64,000 nucleotides of DNA from a virus. Positions within the stretch are counted from its first letter, which is position 1. Each line of letters starts with the position of its first letter. This document shows positions 9,454 through 60,831 of the stretch, piece by piece. A model generated the notes under the pieces. It did no database searches. It had not been told where the DNA came from and saw nothing but the letters and a program-made list of their open reading frames with translations. The DNA lies in IMG/VR virus record IMGVR_UViG_3300018063_000012, positions 1 through 64,000 of that record; one strand, 5' to 3'. Made by a program: the position numbers and the translations under genes.

Positions 9454-11355
9454 TTGAGTAAAAAATATTATATTCGTCATATCGCCGGAGATGATTCGAA
9501 TAGCGGACTATCACCATCAACAGCTTGGAGGACCTTCCTCAACGTCAATAAGTCCGATTCCCCACTCATCCCCGGCGATACTGTTTATGTAGGTTCCGGA
9601 GCATATCACGGAGATAACGTGATAGATACTAATGGCCAGATATATCCAACGAAGATATTCGGAGGAGCGGTTCATTTTATTGCCGACATATCAGGAGATT
9701 TTACAGGGGATGGCGGAGAAGTATCAATCCAGCAACTTAACTATATTGACTATCTTACATTCGATGGATTTACTGTGCAGTTTCAATCAGATAGCACTGC
9801 CGGAGGAGGGTCGGGAACGGCTATAGATTTAAAGATTGAGAACTGTATTTTTATTAGCGGGATACGCATAACCCGCCCAACAGGGATAGCTACATTTAGA
9901 AATAATATAGTTGGATTAAAATTCGCCTTCGGATCTATCGCTGCAGGAGATAGCTTAGCAGTGTCTTTTCTAGGTGGAAACCGTGCCATTGAGGCAGAAA
10001 AACATTATTCAGAAGATCCAGATGCCGGTAAATTTATATGTGAATTTAATACTATATACTCACCGAGCGAGAATACCGGACGAGCATTCAGTTGCTTTGT
10101 TCAAACAAATAATAAATATATAAATCCAGATGGGATGTGGTTTAAGAATAATTTGATAATTAACACAGCCCCAGCCAGGACAGCATATATGATGTTTTGG
10201 GAACCCCAAAGAGCAGAAGACTGGGACTGGAACTGGCACATTGATAATAACTTCTACGCATATGGAAATTTTAATGGTAAGTTCGCAGAGCTGTTATTTT
10301 TCTTTGAAACCTCACCATTTGACTTTACATTTGCCGAATTTGATGATTGGCAGTTCGCTACCATAAGTCCCGATAGTTACGGATTTGTAGGAACCGGGGA
10401 TTCAAATGGAAGTCAAGGAGACCCTTTGTTTGACTCGGATGGGCGTCATATAACAATTAATTCACCGGTGATTAATGAGGCATATATAGTTGGAAATGCG
10501 AAAGATTTTGAAGGAGATTCACGAGGGAACGATTTTCAAGATATAGGAGCAGATGAGTTCTTAAATGAACCGCCAGGAGATAACTATATCTTTACATCAA
10601 AGATTTACGGACATATTTCGGATAATTTTGTTCCTAACAAAGCATACTTTAAGTTTGATTTCTTTGTGTATCCTAACGACTGGATTCGTCTATTAGCTTC
10701 TTGGAATGGCGGATATCGATGGTGGGAAATTGTAAATACTAATACTAATAAATTCTTGCTTGAAGAAGAACTTACGATTCCCGGTAGTGTTAGAGGGCGG
10801 AACTTTATATTTAAGGTAGAGATATTCCAGCACGCTTCTAACAGAGGGATTCCTGATTTTGGTGTAGAGGATATGTCTAAGCTACGCACAGAGCTAGTCA
10901 CGCAGGAAGATATCCAGGAGAACCTAAAGCCTGGGATGGAGTTGGACTTCTGGTCTATTCAATTCCCGGGAGAACGGGCCGCAACTGTAATAGTAGATAA
11001 GTATGGCAACTTTCGCACCTACGTATGGCCGGGTAGCTATCGGGTGAAAATGGTCGGCGGAGGTAAGTTAGCAGGGAAGGAAGTCATAGTTGCTAAAGGA
11101 TTCTCTGATACCTTTGCACGATTCGGCCAACCGAGTTGCATGCATCCCCAGCAATATAATTGGTCAGATTTTGAGCAACAGTTTATGGGTATCGAATGGG
11201 CGCAGTTCGGAGTGATGGAGCTATTTAATAACGAAGACGGTCGATTGAATCCTGAACCAGCACCTCTGCCAGCTTTGGTCCGGTGCGGTAAGGTAGTGAA
11301 AGGGCAGACAGGTAGTCGAATGGTCTTCATGGCGTGCAATCCAACTCTTAAATGA
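9454..11355 (+). CDS. Tail spike / receptor-binding protein with right-handed beta-helix
   Basis: A 633-residue protein. The start is TTG 9454, directly after the upstream stop and behind agaaggag. The N-terminus (DDSNSGLSPSTAWRTF ... GDTVYVGSGAY) is the common opening of parallel beta-helix proteins, and the body is rich in Asn/Gly turns (NNIVGLKF, FNTIYSPSEN). It is paralogous to the spike at 12489 at both ends; the two share a C-terminal part beginning near MELDFWSIQF / TELDVFDLGG with PGSYxVxxxGGG. Expected role: host surface binding, possibly polysaccharide cleavage. No catalytic residues identified. Confidence 0.75.
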   Translation: MSKKYYIRHIAGDDSNSGLSPSTAWRTFLNVNKSDSPLIPGDTVYVGSGAYHGDNVIDTNGQIYPTKIFGGAVHFIADISGDFTGDGGEVSIQQLNYIDYLTFDGFTVQFQSDSTAGGGSGTAIDLKIENCIFISGIRITRPTGIATFRNNIVGLKFAFGSIAAGDSLAVSFLGGNRAIEAEKHYSEDPDAGKFICEFNTIYSPSENTGRAFSCFVQTNNKYINPDGMWFKNNLIINTAPARTAYMMFWEPQRAEDWDWNWHIDNNFYAYGNFNGKFAELLFFFETSPFDFTFAEFDDWQFATISPDSYGFVGTGDSNGSQGDPLFDSDGRHITINSPVINEAYIVGNAKDFEGDSRGNDFQDIGADEFLNEPPGDNYIFTSKIYGHISDNFVPNKAYFKFDFFVYPNDWIRLLASWNGGYRWWEIVNTNTNKFLLEEELTIPGSVRGRNFIFKVEIFQHASNRGIPDFGVEDMSKLRTELVTQEDIQENLKPGMELDFWSIQFPGERAATVIVDKYGNFRTYVWPGSYRVKMVGGGKLAGKEVIVAKGFSDTFARFGQPSCMHPQQYNWSDFEQQFMGIEWAQFGVMELFNNEDGRLNPEPAPLPALVRCGKVVKGQTGSRMVFMACNPTLK

Positions 11356-11492
11356 AAAATAAAGAAGACTTACGAGAATTGTGTAAATGCGGACACCAAA
11401 AACAAGACCATCACTATTACGATGGATTCGGTTTCTGTGATTGTGGAAAGTGTTTCTGTTTTAAATTTAGACGACTAAGGAATAAAAGATGA
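11352..11492 (+). CDS. CxCGH-type Zn miniprotein, 46 aa
   Basis: MKNKEDLRELCKCGHQKQDH, then GFCDCGKCFCFKF. Seven cysteines and several histidines within 46 residues; the C-x-C-G-H ... H ... C-x-C-x-x-F layout matches a widespread zinc miniprotein pattern and the protein at 5302. Overlaps the spike stop (ATGA) and the next start. Function unknown. Confidence 0.55.
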   Translation: MKNKEDLRELCKCGHQKQDHHYYDGFGFCDCGKCFCFKFRRLRNKR

Positions 11493-12085
11493 CTTACAAC
11501 CCTATTCAATTCTGGCATGAGAAGGCACGCTGGTATTTAAGTCAACTAAATCTTTGGGATGTGCAGGATCCCCATAAAGACGAAGAAAAAAAGTTCCTGT
11601 CTGACTTAATGAAAGAAAGGAATAGACAAACTGTTTTAGAAGTTGGGTGCGGGGTAGGAAAGAATATAGCATACTTAAAGCGATACAATAAAGAGGCGAC
11701 TTTCACCGGGATGGATATATCCGCACCGATACTAAACCAAGCACGACTAGGATTAAACGGAAGTGGGATGTGTGTCAATGGGATTAAGCTAGTGCAAGGA
11801 GATAGCCGGTCTCTTCCGTTTAAGAGTGGGAGCTTTGATCTGGTCTTCACAAGGGTATGTTTTATGCATATCCCTGCCGATAATGCAGAAATGGCACTAA
11901 AAGAATTGCTTAGGGTAGGAAATAATTGTATTATGATAGAAACCATAGGAACATTTGAACACGATTTTACTATAAATCACGACTATAAGGAATTAGCCCA
12001 AAGAGTAAATGCGTCATTAATTGAGTACGCAAGACGAAAATTAGATAAAAATTTTGAGAGAGTGATAATGGAGATTGTAAAATGA
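11489..12085 (+). CDS. Class I SAM-dependent methyltransferase (Methyltransf_11-like)
   Basis: A 198-residue enzyme with SAM motif VLEVGCGVGKNIAYL near residue 50, acidic FTGMDIS near residue 73, and SFDLVFTRVCFMHI near residue 112, typical of small-molecule, glycan or protein methyltransferases rather than DNA enzymes. It lies between two spike genes, suggesting modification of a spike or glycan. The last residues (FERVIMEI) reappear at the end of the HNH gene immediately downstream, evidence that the HNH gene inserted here. Confidence 0.8.
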   Translation: MTYNPIQFWHEKARWYLSQLNLWDVQDPHKDEEKKFLSDLMKERNRQTVLEVGCGVGKNIAYLKRYNKEATFTGMDISAPILNQARLGLNGSGMCVNGIKLVQGDSRSLPFKSGSFDLVFTRVCFMHIPADNAEMALKELLRVGNNCIMIETIGTFEHDFTINHDYKELAQRVNASLIEYARRKLDKNFERVIMEIVK

Positions 12086-12492
12086 TTAAAAAGTGCGGTG
12101 AGTGTGAAAGAGAGTTAGACGTTATAAATTTTTCTAAAGATAAAACCCGTTCAGATGGACTACAAAATAGATGTAAGCAGTGCCAATCTGAAATTGGAAT
12201 TCAGACGAGAGCAGGAGAATTATATAGAGAGAAGAGATTCCTAATGAAATTTGGAATAAACTACCAAACTCAACTTAAAAAACAAAATGGTATCTGCGAT
12301 GTTTGTCATCAACCACCAGAAGAAAATGAACGACTAGTAGGTGACCACGACCACTTGACTGATAATTTTAGAGCATTGATACATAAAAGACATAATTCAG
12401 TATTAGGTTTTGCGAGTGATTCATTATCCGAACTTAGACTATGTTTAATTTATCTTGAAAAGTTCGAGCGTGTCATTATGGAGATTGGATGA
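12082..12492 (+). CDS. HNH / endonuclease VII-like homing endonuclease (1)
   Basis: A 136-residue free-standing endonuclease. N-terminal Zn knuckle KKCGECERELDVINF ... RCKQCQ, then CDVCHQPPEENERLVGDHDH with the catalytic D-H-D-H and a downstream RHNSVLGF (the usual C-x-x-C-N here is H-K-R-H-N). Such genes spread by cutting uninvaded alleles. Its last nine residues are FERVIMEIG, matching the 3' end of the upstream methyltransferase at the protein level but with different codons. It overlaps genes on both sides by 4 bases. Confidence 0.85.
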   Translation: MIKKCGECERELDVINFSKDKTRSDGLQNRCKQCQSEIGIQTRAGELYREKRFLMKFGINYQTQLKKQNGICDVCHQPPEENERLVGDHDHLTDNFRALIHKRHNSVLGFASDSLSELRLCLIYLEKFERVIMEIG

Positions 12493-14300
12493 GCGTATAT
12501 TATATTACACTAACCGGAGATAATTCTAACGACGGACTGTCTATCGGAAATGCTTGGCGTGATTTTAATCCTGTCAATAAAGTAGCATCAGTAGTCGTCG
12601 CTGGAGATACTGTTTATGTAAAGACAGGAGATTATACCGGGCAGGCAGGTACGGACGGATACGCGAATCCTCGTAACGCAGGAACATTCGGAAGTCGAAT
12701 TACTATCTGGGGAGATAAGAATGGGATTATCTTCGGAGGCGCTGGCGGGGACGCTATAGTGACTGGCCACGATGACAGTAGCGGTGGGTCCCCAAGCTAT
12801 ATTACTTTTGTTGGACTAAAATTTACTAATACTATTAGCTGTGTTCATAATGAGCTTGGGATTATCGCCAAAGCTTGCGAGATAAACCTGCGATTTAACA
12901 GCAACGGTAATTTTAAACTCATCAGTTGTGTAATTGGCAAAGGGCAAACAACCAATACTACAGTGATAGATTTTACATTATATCTTAGTCTGGAAGCTGA
13001 GATATATAACTGTACTATTTACTCAAGTACTAATAGCGGCACAAGCGCAGATATGATAAAGGAAATTCCTACTGGTGGAGCACCGGTATCTAACTTTATT
13101 AAATTCTATAACAACATTTTAATTCGGCGTAATAATAGATATGTATTTAATTTCGATATTCCTATTGAAGCTGACTGGAATGCGAACTGGTTCTGGGACT
13201 ATAACTTTTATCAATATGAAAACCAAGTATTCGACTTAGGGACAATTTTTATTGATACCCCAATTCAAACTTTTAATGTGCAGACTTTAGAAGATTTGCA
13301 GAATGGGATAAATAATATACTACCAAAAGATATACTTGGCCAGAAGGGTGACCCTTTCCTCGATCCAGACGGGATTCATTTACTGACTAATTCACCCTGT
13401 TATAATACAGCATTGGAAATTGCAGATGTAAATGTCGATATTGATTTGGGTCCGCGCAATGTCTTCTTCGTTTCAGACCGTGGCGCAGATGAAATAAAGC
13501 CAGATAGTGCCGACTATACTTACTACGGATTTACATCAGTTGTCTATCCTACTTGGACAGATGGGGCGGGAAATCCAGAGAGATGCACTATTGTATTAGA
13601 TGCCTTTCCGGATATAGCAGATAACGTAAGAGTGAAAGTATCCTTTAATGGTGGATCCAGCTGGCTAACTTTGGTAGATGCTCTGGAAGGGATAAGTTAC
13701 GTAGGAAAGACATTTCCGATTCCGGCACCAGATAGAGGTTCCTCATTGCAGTTTCGATTGGAGATAGGTGTATACATAGGGAATGCGACAAAAGGTGATG
13801 TCGGGACTAACTTTAATGTTGATACTGAAACCTTTAACGAGGACATAATTCGGGAACAGTTTCCACCTGGCACAGAGTTAGACGTGTTTGATTTGGGCGG
13901 TAATCTGATGGCTAAATTGACATCGGGGAGTATTCGGCAATATAAGGTCTTCCTGCCACCCGGAAGTTATACTGTAAGAGCAAAGGGCGGAGGATTCTTC
14001 GGCGAGCGTATTCGGCAGATAACACTTGGACATAGCTCTTGGTTCGGGCGATATGCTTTCCGGGTATCCGAAATCTGGAAACAGTTCTACAGGAGCCGAG
14101 GCTTGGCAACCTTTAACGGAGTGAATTGGACAACATTCGCTTGTGAGGATACTTTTGATGACCAGACAAGGCGGACACTTCCAGATTCTTATTATGGGAG
14201 CAATCTTCTAGTGGTAAGAGAAGGCAAATTATTGAAGTCACATAGTGCTATCGACTATATAATGTTAATGACAGATCCTTCGGTGATACAAGGACTATGA
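12489..14300 (+). CDS. Tail spike / receptor-binding protein with beta-helix (second paralogue)
   Basis: A 603-residue paralogue of the spike at 9454: the N-terminal layout is the same (DNSNDGLSIGNAWRDF ... GDTVYVKTGDY), then Asn/Gly-rich coils (FYNNILIRRNNRY), and a C-terminal module with PPGSYTVRAKGGG. The central regions have diverged strongly, as expected if the two recognise different surface glycans. It sits between two HNH genes. Role inferred from fold and context; no active site identified. Confidence 0.75.
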   Translation: MSVYYITLTGDNSNDGLSIGNAWRDFNPVNKVASVVVAGDTVYVKTGDYTGQAGTDGYANPRNAGTFGSRITIWGDKNGIIFGGAGGDAIVTGHDDSSGGSPSYITFVGLKFTNTISCVHNELGIIAKACEINLRFNSNGNFKLISCVIGKGQTTNTTVIDFTLYLSLEAEIYNCTIYSSTNSGTSADMIKEIPTGGAPVSNFIKFYNNILIRRNNRYVFNFDIPIEADWNANWFWDYNFYQYENQVFDLGTIFIDTPIQTFNVQTLEDLQNGINNILPKDILGQKGDPFLDPDGIHLLTNSPCYNTALEIADVNVDIDLGPRNVFFVSDRGADEIKPDSADYTYYGFTSVVYPTWTDGAGNPERCTIVLDAFPDIADNVRVKVSFNGGSSWLTLVDALEGISYVGKTFPIPAPDRGSSLQFRLEIGVYIGNATKGDVGTNFNVDTETFNEDIIREQFPPGTELDVFDLGGNLMAKLTSGSIRQYKVFLPPGSYTVRAKGGGFFGERIRQITLGHSSWFGRYAFRVSEIWKQFYRSRGLATFNGVNWTTFACEDTFDDQTRRTLPDSYYGSNLLVVREGKLLKSHSAIDYIMLMTDPSVIQGL

Positions 14301-14301
14301 T

Positions 14302-14742
14302 ATGAATAAAGTGTGTTCAAAATGTAAGGAAGAAAAGAATGTTATTAATTTTGATGTCAATAACCTCGGTGGTAAATTAAATAGACATTCTATTTGTAAA
14401 GAATGCAAAAGTAGATATATAAAACAGTATAGAAAGACACACGATAAAGAATTTAAACGCAGGAATCAAGAGTATAGAATAAAACTAAAGTTAGAAGTAT
14501 TAACTCATTATTGTAATGGAAAACCTTATTGTCAGTGTATAGGATGTAATATTACTGATATAGAGTTCCTGACTATTGACCACTGTAATGGAGACGGCGC
14601 TAAACATCGAAGAGGTATGACTGTGAATTTTTATAATTGGTTAAAAACGACAGGGTATCCAAAAGAGTATAGAGTATTATGCTGGAACTGTAACTGTGTG
14701 CGACGGTTTAATAATCAATGTCCACATCAGAGAACCAGATAA
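14302..14742 (+). CDS. HNH homing endonuclease (2)
   Basis: 146 residues. Zn knuckle KVCSKCKEEKNVINF with ICKECKSRY, a basic helix, then LTIDHCNGDGAKHRRG and a distal VLCWNCNCVRRFN, the order of the common phage HNH family. The A+T-rich codon use differs from the spike upstream. It begins two bases after the spike stop and ends just before the ribosome site of the membrane protein, so it is a clean intergenic insertion. No copied flanking sequence was found here, unlike endonuclease 1. Confidence 0.85.
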   Translation: MNKVCSKCKEEKNVINFDVNNLGGKLNRHSICKECKSRYIKQYRKTHDKEFKRRNQEYRIKLKLEVLTHYCNGKPYCQCIGCNITDIEFLTIDHCNGDGAKHRRGMTVNFYNWLKTTGYPKEYRVLCWNCNCVRRFNNQCPHQRTR

Positions 14743-28335: not shown

Positions 28336-29847
28336 GTGCCCATTGCGATTACAGACGCGCAGATTAAAAAAGCTACAATATTTGTTGCAAAGAGAAACTA
28401 TCTACTATTCTTTAAATTCGTGCTTGGCGCGGATATGGAGGAGTTTCACCTTGAGTGGTTAGGATGGCTTCAGAATCGATATGTAAATATCCTCGCACCA
28501 CGTGACCACGGAAAGAGTCACTTTTTCACCGTTGGATATGCCATCTGGAACGCATACTACAAACGTCATAAATCAATTTACATTTTCTCTGCATCCGAAC
28601 GCCAGGCTGGAAAAATGCTTGCACGTATTAAAGATGAGATTGAAGAACGGCCCGACTTGTTATGGTTAAAACCACTTAAACTGGAACAGTGGAATAGACT
28701 AAGTATTAAGCTCTCAAATGGTGTTGAGATTCATGCCCAAGCAATCAACTCGCGCACACGCGGCCCGCGCGCGGGACTTATTATTTTGGACGATATTCTG
28801 GACGAGAAGAATTGCGCTACTAAAGATATGCGTGAGACAATGGATAACGTAGTGTTAGAGAAAATTTTACCTATGTTGAATAAGGACTTTAAGGACCGCC
28901 AGTTTATCGTAGTTGGAACTCCACAGCACTACAAAGATACACATCATACGCTCCTGGCTAATCCACTGTTTAAAGGGAAGAAGTATAAAGCCATTATCGA
29001 CGAGAATAACAAAATAGTATTGTCACCACGACGTAGACCATACGAACGTCTTATGGAAGAAAAAGCGGCGATGGGATCCGTACTTCGATTTACTAAAGAA
29101 TATCAGTGTGAACCTGTAGACGAATCAAGTACCATATTCCAGATGAAACTATTGGGGATGGCAAAGGATATAAATTCCATAGCACCATTATCATACAACG
29201 GGACCGGTATCTGGAGAACATTTATGGGTGTAGACTTTAGCGTGCCAAATGTAACGAAGAACTGGACAGTCATCTGCGTGATTGGCGTTGACAACGTCGG
29301 GCGAATAACGCTTTTAAATCTGCACTGGTCCCGAGGACACAACTTCACAGCTCAAATGGCTATTGTAGAAGATGCCTGCACACGGTTTAACGTGTCATTG
29401 GGATTCCTTGAGGCAAATGCTTTTCAGGGTATTTATGCGGATACTATAAATGATAATACTGCACTGCCACTCAGAAAGTATGTGACTACAGGAAAAAATA
29501 AAAATGACCAGACTTGGGGACTACTCGGACTTGAAAATATGTTTATTACTCGCAAGATACTATTGCCGTATCATCCCGACGATGCACGAGGTAAGGCAAT
29601 GACGGATAGACTATGCCTTGAATTGAATCAACTACGGCTGGTAGATGGCAAAGTTAAGTCGGCGGGAGAGCATGATGATTGTGTTATGGCTTTCTGGCTT
29701 GCATTGTGTGCGGCGAGATCCGGTATCATAACAGCAGGAGCATCATCTATGCAGACTAATCCTTTCTTTAGAAGAGGGATGGAGCCAGGTAGTGGTAGAG
29801 GTCAGATAGGAAATATAGAGGGAAATCGAGGATGGAAAAAGTCTTAA
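28336..29847 (+). CDS. Terminase large subunit (TerL)
   Basis: 503 residues, GTG start after gaggaaagg. ATPase: Walker A variant APRDHGKS at residues 54-61, Walker B LIILDDILDE near residue 148. RNase H-like nuclease: MGVDFSVPN near residue 295, FLEANAFQG near residue 358, and GEHDDCVMAF near residue 457 supply the acidic metal ligands. It would pump and cut DNA at the portal. The C-terminus is Gly-rich. Confidence 0.92.
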   Translation: MPIAITDAQIKKATIFVAKRNYLLFFKFVLGADMEEFHLEWLGWLQNRYVNILAPRDHGKSHFFTVGYAIWNAYYKRHKSIYIFSASERQAGKMLARIKDEIEERPDLLWLKPLKLEQWNRLSIKLSNGVEIHAQAINSRTRGPRAGLIILDDILDEKNCATKDMRETMDNVVLEKILPMLNKDFKDRQFIVVGTPQHYKDTHHTLLANPLFKGKKYKAIIDENNKIVLSPRRRPYERLMEEKAAMGSVLRFTKEYQCEPVDESSTIFQMKLLGMAKDINSIAPLSYNGTGIWRTFMGVDFSVPNVTKNWTVICVIGVDNVGRITLLNLHWSRGHNFTAQMAIVEDACTRFNVSLGFLEANAFQGIYADTINDNTALPLRKYVTTGKNKNDQTWGLLGLENMFITRKILLPYHPDDARGKAMTDRLCLELNQLRLVDGKVKSAGEHDDCVMAFWLALCAARSGIITAGASSMQTNPFFRRGMEPGSGRGQIGNIEGNRGWKKS

Positions 29848-52254: not shown

Positions 52255-52536
52255 ATGGAACTGATGAACAATGTAATAAAGGCCAAAGAATCCTTTAAAC
52301 GACTGGAGTTACATAAATCTATCAGAGAAAACTACAAGAGTAGGAAGTTTATTTCCTTCTGCGTAGTCTGGTCCTTCGGAAGCTTGATGTTTTATATGAA
52401 AGCGATGACCGCCGCTGAATGGATCGGATTCTCCGAATGGCTATTAGGTATATTTTTCTTTTTCAATATCGCCGACAAATCGGGGTTACTGGGGATGATT
52501 AAGAAACAGGATAGCGATACTGAGAGATTGAAATGA
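52255..52536 (+). CDS. Candidate holin, 93 aa, two membrane helices
   Basis: A charged N-terminus (KESFKRLELHKSIRENYKSR), membrane segments FISFCVVWSFGSLMFYMKAM and WLLGIFFFFNIADKSGLLGM, and a charged tail ending DTERLK. Size and position before the endolysin suggest a holin. The HNH gene has inserted at its stop codon. Confidence 0.55.
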   Translation: MELMNNVIKAKESFKRLELHKSIRENYKSRKFISFCVVWSFGSLMFYMKAMTAAEWIGFSEWLLGIFFFFNIADKSGLLGMIKKQDSDTERLK

Positions 52537-52994
52537 AGTCTATAATTCAGATAGAAAAAGATAGGGAGTATCAACGACTTTATAAAATAAAGAAGTCTAT
52601 AATTCAGATAGAAAAAGATAGGGAGTATCAACGACTTTATAAAATAAAGAATAGAGATAAGATTAATAGTCAAGTCCAAGCGTGGGTTAAAAATCATCCT
52701 GACTATTATCCCGAATATAGGTGTCAGTATAAGTACCAAATATCATTTAAAGATAAACAAGATATGCTGATTAACCAGAATTCTGAATGTGCTATCTGTA
52801 GACAATTACTACAGATAGATAAAGCGTTTATTGACCATGACCACAAATCAAGTAAGATACGAGGATTACTGTGTTATAATTGTAATATGGGGATAGGTCA
52901 TTTACATGATTCTATAGTTGTTCTTGAACAAGCTATTGAATATCTAAAAATATATGCTACGGATACTTCTACAACGACTAAAGATAAAAGGTAA
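52533..52994 (+). CDS. HNH / endonuclease VII-like homing endonuclease (3)
   Basis: 153 residues. Core CAICRQLLQIDKAFIDHDHK and RGLLCYNCNMGIGH are complete. The N-terminal Zn knuckle seen in the other copies is missing; in its place is a 19-residue segment present twice (IIQIEKDREYQRLYKIK), encoded by an exact 57-base tandem repeat. ATG overlaps the holin stop. Its 3' end covers the start of the endolysin. Confidence 0.85.
   Translation: MKSIIQIEKDREYQRLYKIKKSIIQIEKDREYQRLYKIKNRDKINSQVQAWVKNHPDYYPEYRCQYKYQISFKDKQDMLINQNSECAICRQLLQIDKAFIDHDHKSSKIRGLLCYNCNMGIGHLHDSIVVLEQAIEYLKIYATDTSTTTKDKR
52536..52649 (+). repeat. 57-base exact tandem duplication
   Basis: Two identical copies, 52536-52592 and 52593-52649, in frame at the start of the HNH gene. 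No base differs between copies, so the duplication is recent or maintained. Confidence 0.95.
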
Positions 52995-60357: not shown

Positions 60358-60831
60358 ATGAAGATTTGCTCTAAATGTAGAATAGAGAAAGAGCTCTCCG
60401 ATTTTGGATTAGATAACAGAATGAGACTGGGGAGAAGATCCGCCTGTCGGGAATGTAATGCTAAATTTAAACGAGAGCAGTATTCTAAAAATAGAGAACA
60501 AATTTTAATAGACGTTAAAAAATACCAAGCAAAATATCCAGAAGTGGGATTAAACGCCACTTTGAAACGGTCATATGGAATAATGAGTAAAGATTGGGAT
60601 AGGATGTTTAATACCCAAGAAGATATGTGTGCAAGATGTCATAAACTAATGGATAGAAATAAGAGAAGAGAAATTCACGTCGACCATAATCATTTAACTG
60701 GACAAGTGCGAGCTTTAATCCACCGCAGGTGTAACCTTTTGATTAGTGGAGTAGATGATAAGGATGAACTAAAGTTGTCGCTAGAATACTTGAAAAAGTA
60801 TGATAGAGAATGGGCTATGGAGGTTAAATAA
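60358..60831 (+). CDS. HNH / endonuclease VII-like homing endonuclease (4)
   Basis: 157 residues. Zn knuckle KICSKCRIEKELSDFG ... SACRECNAKF, then CARCHKLMDRNKRREIHVDH with N-H and RALIHRRCNLLISG. It lies one base after the sheath stop and three before the tube gene, splitting two genes that normally adjoin. C-terminus ends KKYDREWAMEVK. A+T-rich codons compared with the sheath. Confidence 0.85.
   Translation: MKICSKCRIEKELSDFGLDNRMRLGRRSACRECNAKFKREQYSKNREQILIDVKKYQAKYPEVGLNATLKRSYGIMSKDWDRMFNTQEDMCARCHKLMDRNKRREIHVDHNHLTGQVRALIHRRCNLLISGVDDKDELKLSLEYLKKYDREWAMEVK

Follow-up and report, generated by a model that had tools for sequence, protein, structure and literature searches.

Two spellings of one protein end around an Endonuclease VII-type gene: probable entry of a homing endonuclease gene into a phage methyltransferase gene

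Why should a phage methyltransferase gene and the HNH endonuclease gene that follows it end in the same eight residues, spelled in different codons? The question is raised by the virus record IMGVR_UViG_3300018063_000012 (101,317 bp), of which positions 1 to 64,000 are the stretch analysed here (the window). The record belongs to a contractile-tailed phage, in which tail sheath, terminase, portal and major head protein were recognised using PHROGs. Between 9454 and 14300, five genes are packed together with ATGA overlaps, in the order first spike, 46-aa ORF, methyltransferase, HNH gene and second spike (Table 1). Probably, although by no means certainly, an Endonuclease VII-type homing endonuclease gene has inserted in the terminal FERVIMEIG of the methyltransferase, the upstream copy of the shared end being a substitute and the downstream copy the native end.

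Table 1. Features of the methyltransferase/HNH locus and the paralogous HNH gene
Feature	Position	Strand	Basis
Spike-like protein 1 (633 aa), paralogous to the second spike and part of its overlapping cluster	9454..11355	+	ORF; 28-42% identity to second spike over two stretches
46-aa ORF between spike 1 and methyltransferase, ATGA overlap on each side	11352..11492	+	sequence, ORF list
Class I SAM-dependent methyltransferase (198 aa), presumed host gene of the insertion, end FERVIMEIVK	11489..12085	+	PF13649 2e-19; ORF
Upstream FERVIMEI copy, TTTGAGAGAGTGATAATGGAGATT; presumed substitute 3' end from the element; HNH-like codons	12053..12076	+	sequence, codon usage
GGAG inside upstream copy, likely Shine-Dalgarno of HNH gene, 8 nt before its ATG	12070..12073	+	sequence
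Endonuclease VII-type (HNH) homing-endonuclease-like gene (136 aa), end FERVIMEIG	12082..12492	+	PF02945, phrog_2633, residues as in PMC6083498
Downstream FERVIMEI copy, TTCGAGCGTGTCATTATGGAGATT; presumed original methyltransferase 3' end, now in HNH frame; codons atypical of HNH genes	12463..12486	+	sequence, codon usage
GGAG inside downstream copy, likely Shine-Dalgarno of second spike, 5 nt before its ATG	12480..12483	+	sequence
Second spike-like protein (603 aa), ATGA overlap with HNH stop; presumed original 3' neighbour of the methyltransferase	12489..14300	+	ORF; spike paralogy
Endonuclease VII-type paralogue of the HNH gene, located between tail sheath and next gene, tail YDREWAMEVK	60358..60831	+	sequence comparison

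The duplicated end is present on either side of the endonuclease body. In its upstream spelling the methyltransferase end reads tttgagagagtg...gtaaaa. The two FERVIMEI copies are identical at 19 of 24 bases, and all five differences are silent and lie within FERVI, the first five codons, where 10 of 15 bases are shared. Over the 60 bases that precede each copy only 20 are identical, so that the likeness ends abruptly upstream. The positions and reading frames of both copies (12053-12076 and 12463-12486) had been given by a first-pass annotation and proved correct, as did its figure of five synonymous differences in 24 bases. The two stop/start junctions it described are also present, flanking the HNH gene at 12082-12085 and 12489-12492, although such overlaps are frequent across the genome, occurring in 10 of about 105 pairs of adjacent ORFs.

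The match of eight residues is the longest among the 6,105 pairs of protein ends in the phage genome, the runner-up being five residues. At other loci (17,295 nearby ORF-end pairs in 1.34 Mb), more than five residues are shared in one pair only (L057), which was rejected as a second case of a duplicated end, being a whole-gene tandem paralogue. The last ten bases of the two copies, ATGGAGATTG, are identical and contain GGAG; such a Shine-Dalgarno core is found in about half of the gene ends of this phage. ATGGAGATTG was probably retained in each gene for its role in ribosome binding. A Shine-Dalgarno constraint can explain the identity of ME(I), and since ATGGAGATTG is the Shine-Dalgarno region in both copies, only FERVI needs a historical explanation. 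Another reading is coincidence combined with constraint: MEI would be fixed in both genes as the ATGGAG Shine-Dalgarno of the next gene, and FERVI would be a chance match. The confinement of identity beyond the codon level to the ATGGAGATTG part agrees with this, as do the modest base identity of FERVI and the frequency of such cores at gene ends. Residue frequencies, however, put FERVI in fixed register at only about 7e-7 per pair, and unrelated neighbours among the 17,295 pairs never have more than five residues in common, figures to be read with the fact that the duplicated end was picked out of a scan, so that the effective number of trials is large. On balance a chance match is improbable.

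The gene whose body lies between the two copies is of a type that includes a proven homing enzyme. Its protein matches PF02945 (Recombination endonuclease VII; 3.4e-9, above cutoff) and phrog_2633 (3.4e-22), and gene 13.5 of phiYeO3-12 is among its relatives, as is F-CphI of cyanophage S-PM2, a member of the Endonuclease VII class for which homing has been demonstrated experimentally (PMC6083498). The catalytic residues of T4 Endonuclease VII are D40, H41, H43, R54 and N62 (PMC6083498); in the HNH protein D88, H89, H91, R97 and N105 are all present. The first putative pair of zinc ligands is C72/C75, while the second is H101/H104 and not Cys-Cys; histidines are plausible zinc ligands at these two positions. 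In this protein (12082-12492) and in that encoded at 60358-60831, RALIH replaces the RGLLC usual elsewhere, so that the second zinc pair becomes His-His or His-Cys. A strict RALIH-subfamily pattern had no match in IMG/VR, and a looser one matched four genomes, three of them with RGLLH HNH proteins. Several further HNH genes occur elsewhere in the record, and the end of the upstream neighbour is repeated by none of the three others compared inside the window. A different second HNH gene lies at 14302-14742, directly 3' of spike 2, which is thereby bracketed by two endonuclease genes.

The C-terminus of the HNH protein is also unusually long. In 13 of 17 phage relatives the protein ends 2-6 residues past a conserved YL, compared with 11 residues here, and in this protein YL directly precedes FERVIMEIG. 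Long unrelated tails do occur in some relatives (11 residues in L045, 14 in L173), and a similar duplicated end was seen in none of the 17.

Relatives were sought by scans of IMG/VR with the methyltransferase, the HNH protein, the terminase and a FERVIMEI pattern, and by tblastn of INPHARED and PLSDB; the methyltransferase was also sought in 392 + 399 genomes of two phyla. No close relative, invaded or uninvaded, was found in IMG/VR, INPHARED, PLSDB or the roughly 790 sampled bacterial genomes. The single FERVIMEI match at the DNA level (L006) was discarded as chance, being antisense to a structural gene. By its terminase large subunit (28336-29847) the phage is an orphan, with a best match of about 30% identity in IMG/VR or INPHARED, and the nearest named phages are Bacteroides phages such as SJC03. 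The whole case consists of one locus in one assembly, with eight codons, and because no relative with or without the insertion was found, the direction of the event was tested from inside the genome.

The codons of the two copies provide such a test. In this phage, HNH genes favour the codons TTT, AGA and ATA, whereas the downstream tail, although inside the HNH gene, uses TTC CGT GTC ATT. Under codon usage pooled from the HNH genes of the phage, this tail has a probability of 0.001, and under that of the body of this HNH gene alone 0.018, compared with 0.10 under core usage and 0.19 under spike usage. The upstream tail, in contrast, is typical of HNH codon usage (P = 0.66). The same asymmetry is seen in GC3, which is 0.23 in the HNH body and 0.63 in the downstream tail. 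From the log-likelihoods, an upstream copy derived from the HNH element and a native downstream copy are favoured over the reverse by a likelihood ratio of about 60-115, a figure that draws on only four informative codons.

The reverse direction would make FERVIMEI the HNH gene's own tail, and the end of the methyltransferase would derive from an HNH copy formerly at that place, for example through a deletion between the methyltransferase and one member of a tandem HNH pair. HNH tails do differ in length, and the paralogue at 60358 ends YLKKYDREWAMEVK, an end that BLASTP aligns through to the FERVIMEIG tail. This tail likeness, which first pointed to the reverse direction, is weak (P about 0.05) and stems in part from a Shine-Dalgarno-encoding ATGGAG common to both tails; the tail of the paralogue also encodes ATGGAGG just before the next start, and a shared ribosome-binding constraint is the likelier cause of the resemblance. 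The sheath end is not duplicated at the paralogous gene, and a search for HNH genes with YLxK[FY][DE]R...ME tails gave only chance matches among the 118 stretches listed. The reverse direction moreover predicts the opposite of the observed codons, since the downstream copy should then not be foreign to HNH genes. Judging by the class I fold, the methyltransferase would need a strand after its last helix. FERVIMEIVK would be the only candidate for that strand here, so that a methyltransferase without this tail would have none, while the HNH protein would not need its tail. Taken with these points, the reverse direction is unlikely. The codon asymmetry and the tail length favour a reading in which the element entered the 3' end of the methyltransferase gene and brought the upstream copy with it. 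The first-pass annotation had read the locus in just this way, and to that extent its reading holds, on the indirect evidence of the codons and of a tail that runs beyond the stop of its relatives.

It had also proposed that the upstream copy was recoded, perhaps with loss of the cleavage site, and the silent differences can be accounted for without this. Were five bases changed at random, the probability that every change was silent would be about 5e-5, which indicates that both copies were under selection at the protein level for most of their separate history. This bears on the idea of a target-site duplication, in which a stretch of about 24 bp at the end of the methyltransferase gene was doubled on HNH insertion, the copies then diverging in place. 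The repeat is indeed sharp-edged and brackets the HNH body. One of the copies would then have been a mere appendage of the HNH protein, however, and should have accepted amino acid changes, where five silent and zero replacement differences are observed. Long target duplications are not known from homing by double-strand-break repair, which also counts against an origin of this kind, and it is unlikely that the repeat was formed in this way. Most simply, the synonymous-only differences would reflect a copy taken by co-conversion from a diverged methyltransferase homologue. An end from such a homologue would look alike, and the silent differences therefore need no selection for recoding. They may nevertheless protect the repaired gene from the enzyme.

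The insertion proposed here as the best explanation would have proceeded as follows. A free-standing Endonuclease VII-type homing endonuclease gene would have entered at the codon for F of the terminal FERVIMEIG of a methyltransferase that originally ended ttcgagcgtgtcattatggagattggatga, overlapping the spike start. The element would span roughly 12053-12462, its left edge being its own version of the last methyltransferase codons, gained by co-conversion from a diverged methyltransferase homologue during homing. These left-edge codons would complete the methyltransferase (as FERVIMEIVK) and carry the Shine-Dalgarno of the endonuclease. At the other edge, the endonuclease frame would run out into the original terminal codons and so end in FERVIMEIG, whereby the original Shine-Dalgarno and the ATGA coupling to the second spike would be retained. 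The left edge may instead lie upstream of 12053, deeper inside the methyltransferase gene. The DNA itself shows the two copies, their purely silent divergence, the codon asymmetry and the family and catalytic residues of the HNH protein; the insertion, its direction, homing and protection from cleavage are inferred. A narrower version, a minimal adaptor, is a tentative possibility: a recoded octapeptide would complete the invaded gene and carry the ribosome-binding site of the endonuclease, while the frame leading into the original end would preserve, for the next gene, both its ribosome-binding site and its stop-start coupling, and the recoding would in addition remove the cleavage site.

Fungal mitochondria provide a known arrangement of this kind: mobile endonuclease ORFs bring a substitute C-terminus in atp6 of Allomyces and in atp6, atp9, cox2 and nad3 of Glomus (PMC3630166). 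As at the phage locus, the endonuclease ORF lies in the 3' part of the host gene, with the substitute C-terminus upstream and the displaced native C-terminus downstream, and the divergence between the two is high in DNA but largely silent in protein (PMC3630166). For atp6 and nad3, the endonuclease ORF and the host gene are in phase (PMC3630166). The fungal enzymes are mitochondrial and of the LAGLIDADG or GIY-YIG type, in contrast to the Endonuclease VII-type enzyme of the phage, and their C-termini comprise tens to hundreds of bases with uninvaded relatives known (PMC3630166), whereas the phage repeat has only eight codons. The phage locus further differs in that the endonuclease frame runs on into the native end, which still provides the start signal of the next gene.

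Among phage systems, F-CphI (PMC6083498) is homologous in sequence to the phage HNH protein and shares with it the Endonuclease VII catalytic motif, N-terminal zinc-ribbon cysteines and a free-standing gene beside its presumed target, but its second zinc pair is Cys-Cys where the HNH protein has His-His. F-CphI owes its protection to an intron in psbA (collaborative homing) and has no duplicated end (PMC6083498), while the present locus has no intron. Gene 13.5 of T3/phiYeO3-12 and other PHROG 2633 genes are of the same family, lie between conserved structural genes and have a 4-base start overlap, but they stop 2-6 residues past YL and lack any repeat of the upstream gene's end. The free-standing mob and seg genes of T4 (such as mobE after nrdA) resemble the HNH gene in commonly overlapping the upstream stop codon, which suggests translational coupling; they are described as intergenic, and a duplicated host-gene end is not mentioned in the review passages searched (PMC2988022). 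No phage example with a duplicated gene end was found in the open-licence literature searched. The layout is therefore already known from fungal mitochondria, and the phage case with an Endonuclease VII-type enzyme appears to be new. If the insertion reading is true, this is a compact phage example of a selfish endonuclease gene that enters a coding end without breaking the gene or its translationally coupled neighbour, and without an intron or intein. It would also be a convergent answer to a problem solved in fungal mitochondria by other endonuclease families.

Two further ORFs related to HNH genes were noted. One, of 77 aa, lies beyond the window (G000 86507-86740, locus L033) and encodes only an HNH-type N-terminal zinc-ribbon (MLKKCSKCKAEKDESEFGKNKTRPDG...) followed by an Ala/Glu-rich tail, without a nuclease core. 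The other, an Endonuclease VII-like ORF at 52533-52994, starts with a perfect in-frame tandem duplication of 57 bp (KSIIQIEKDREYQRLYKIK x2); as the two repeats are 100% identical, this would be a very recent event or an effect of the assembly.
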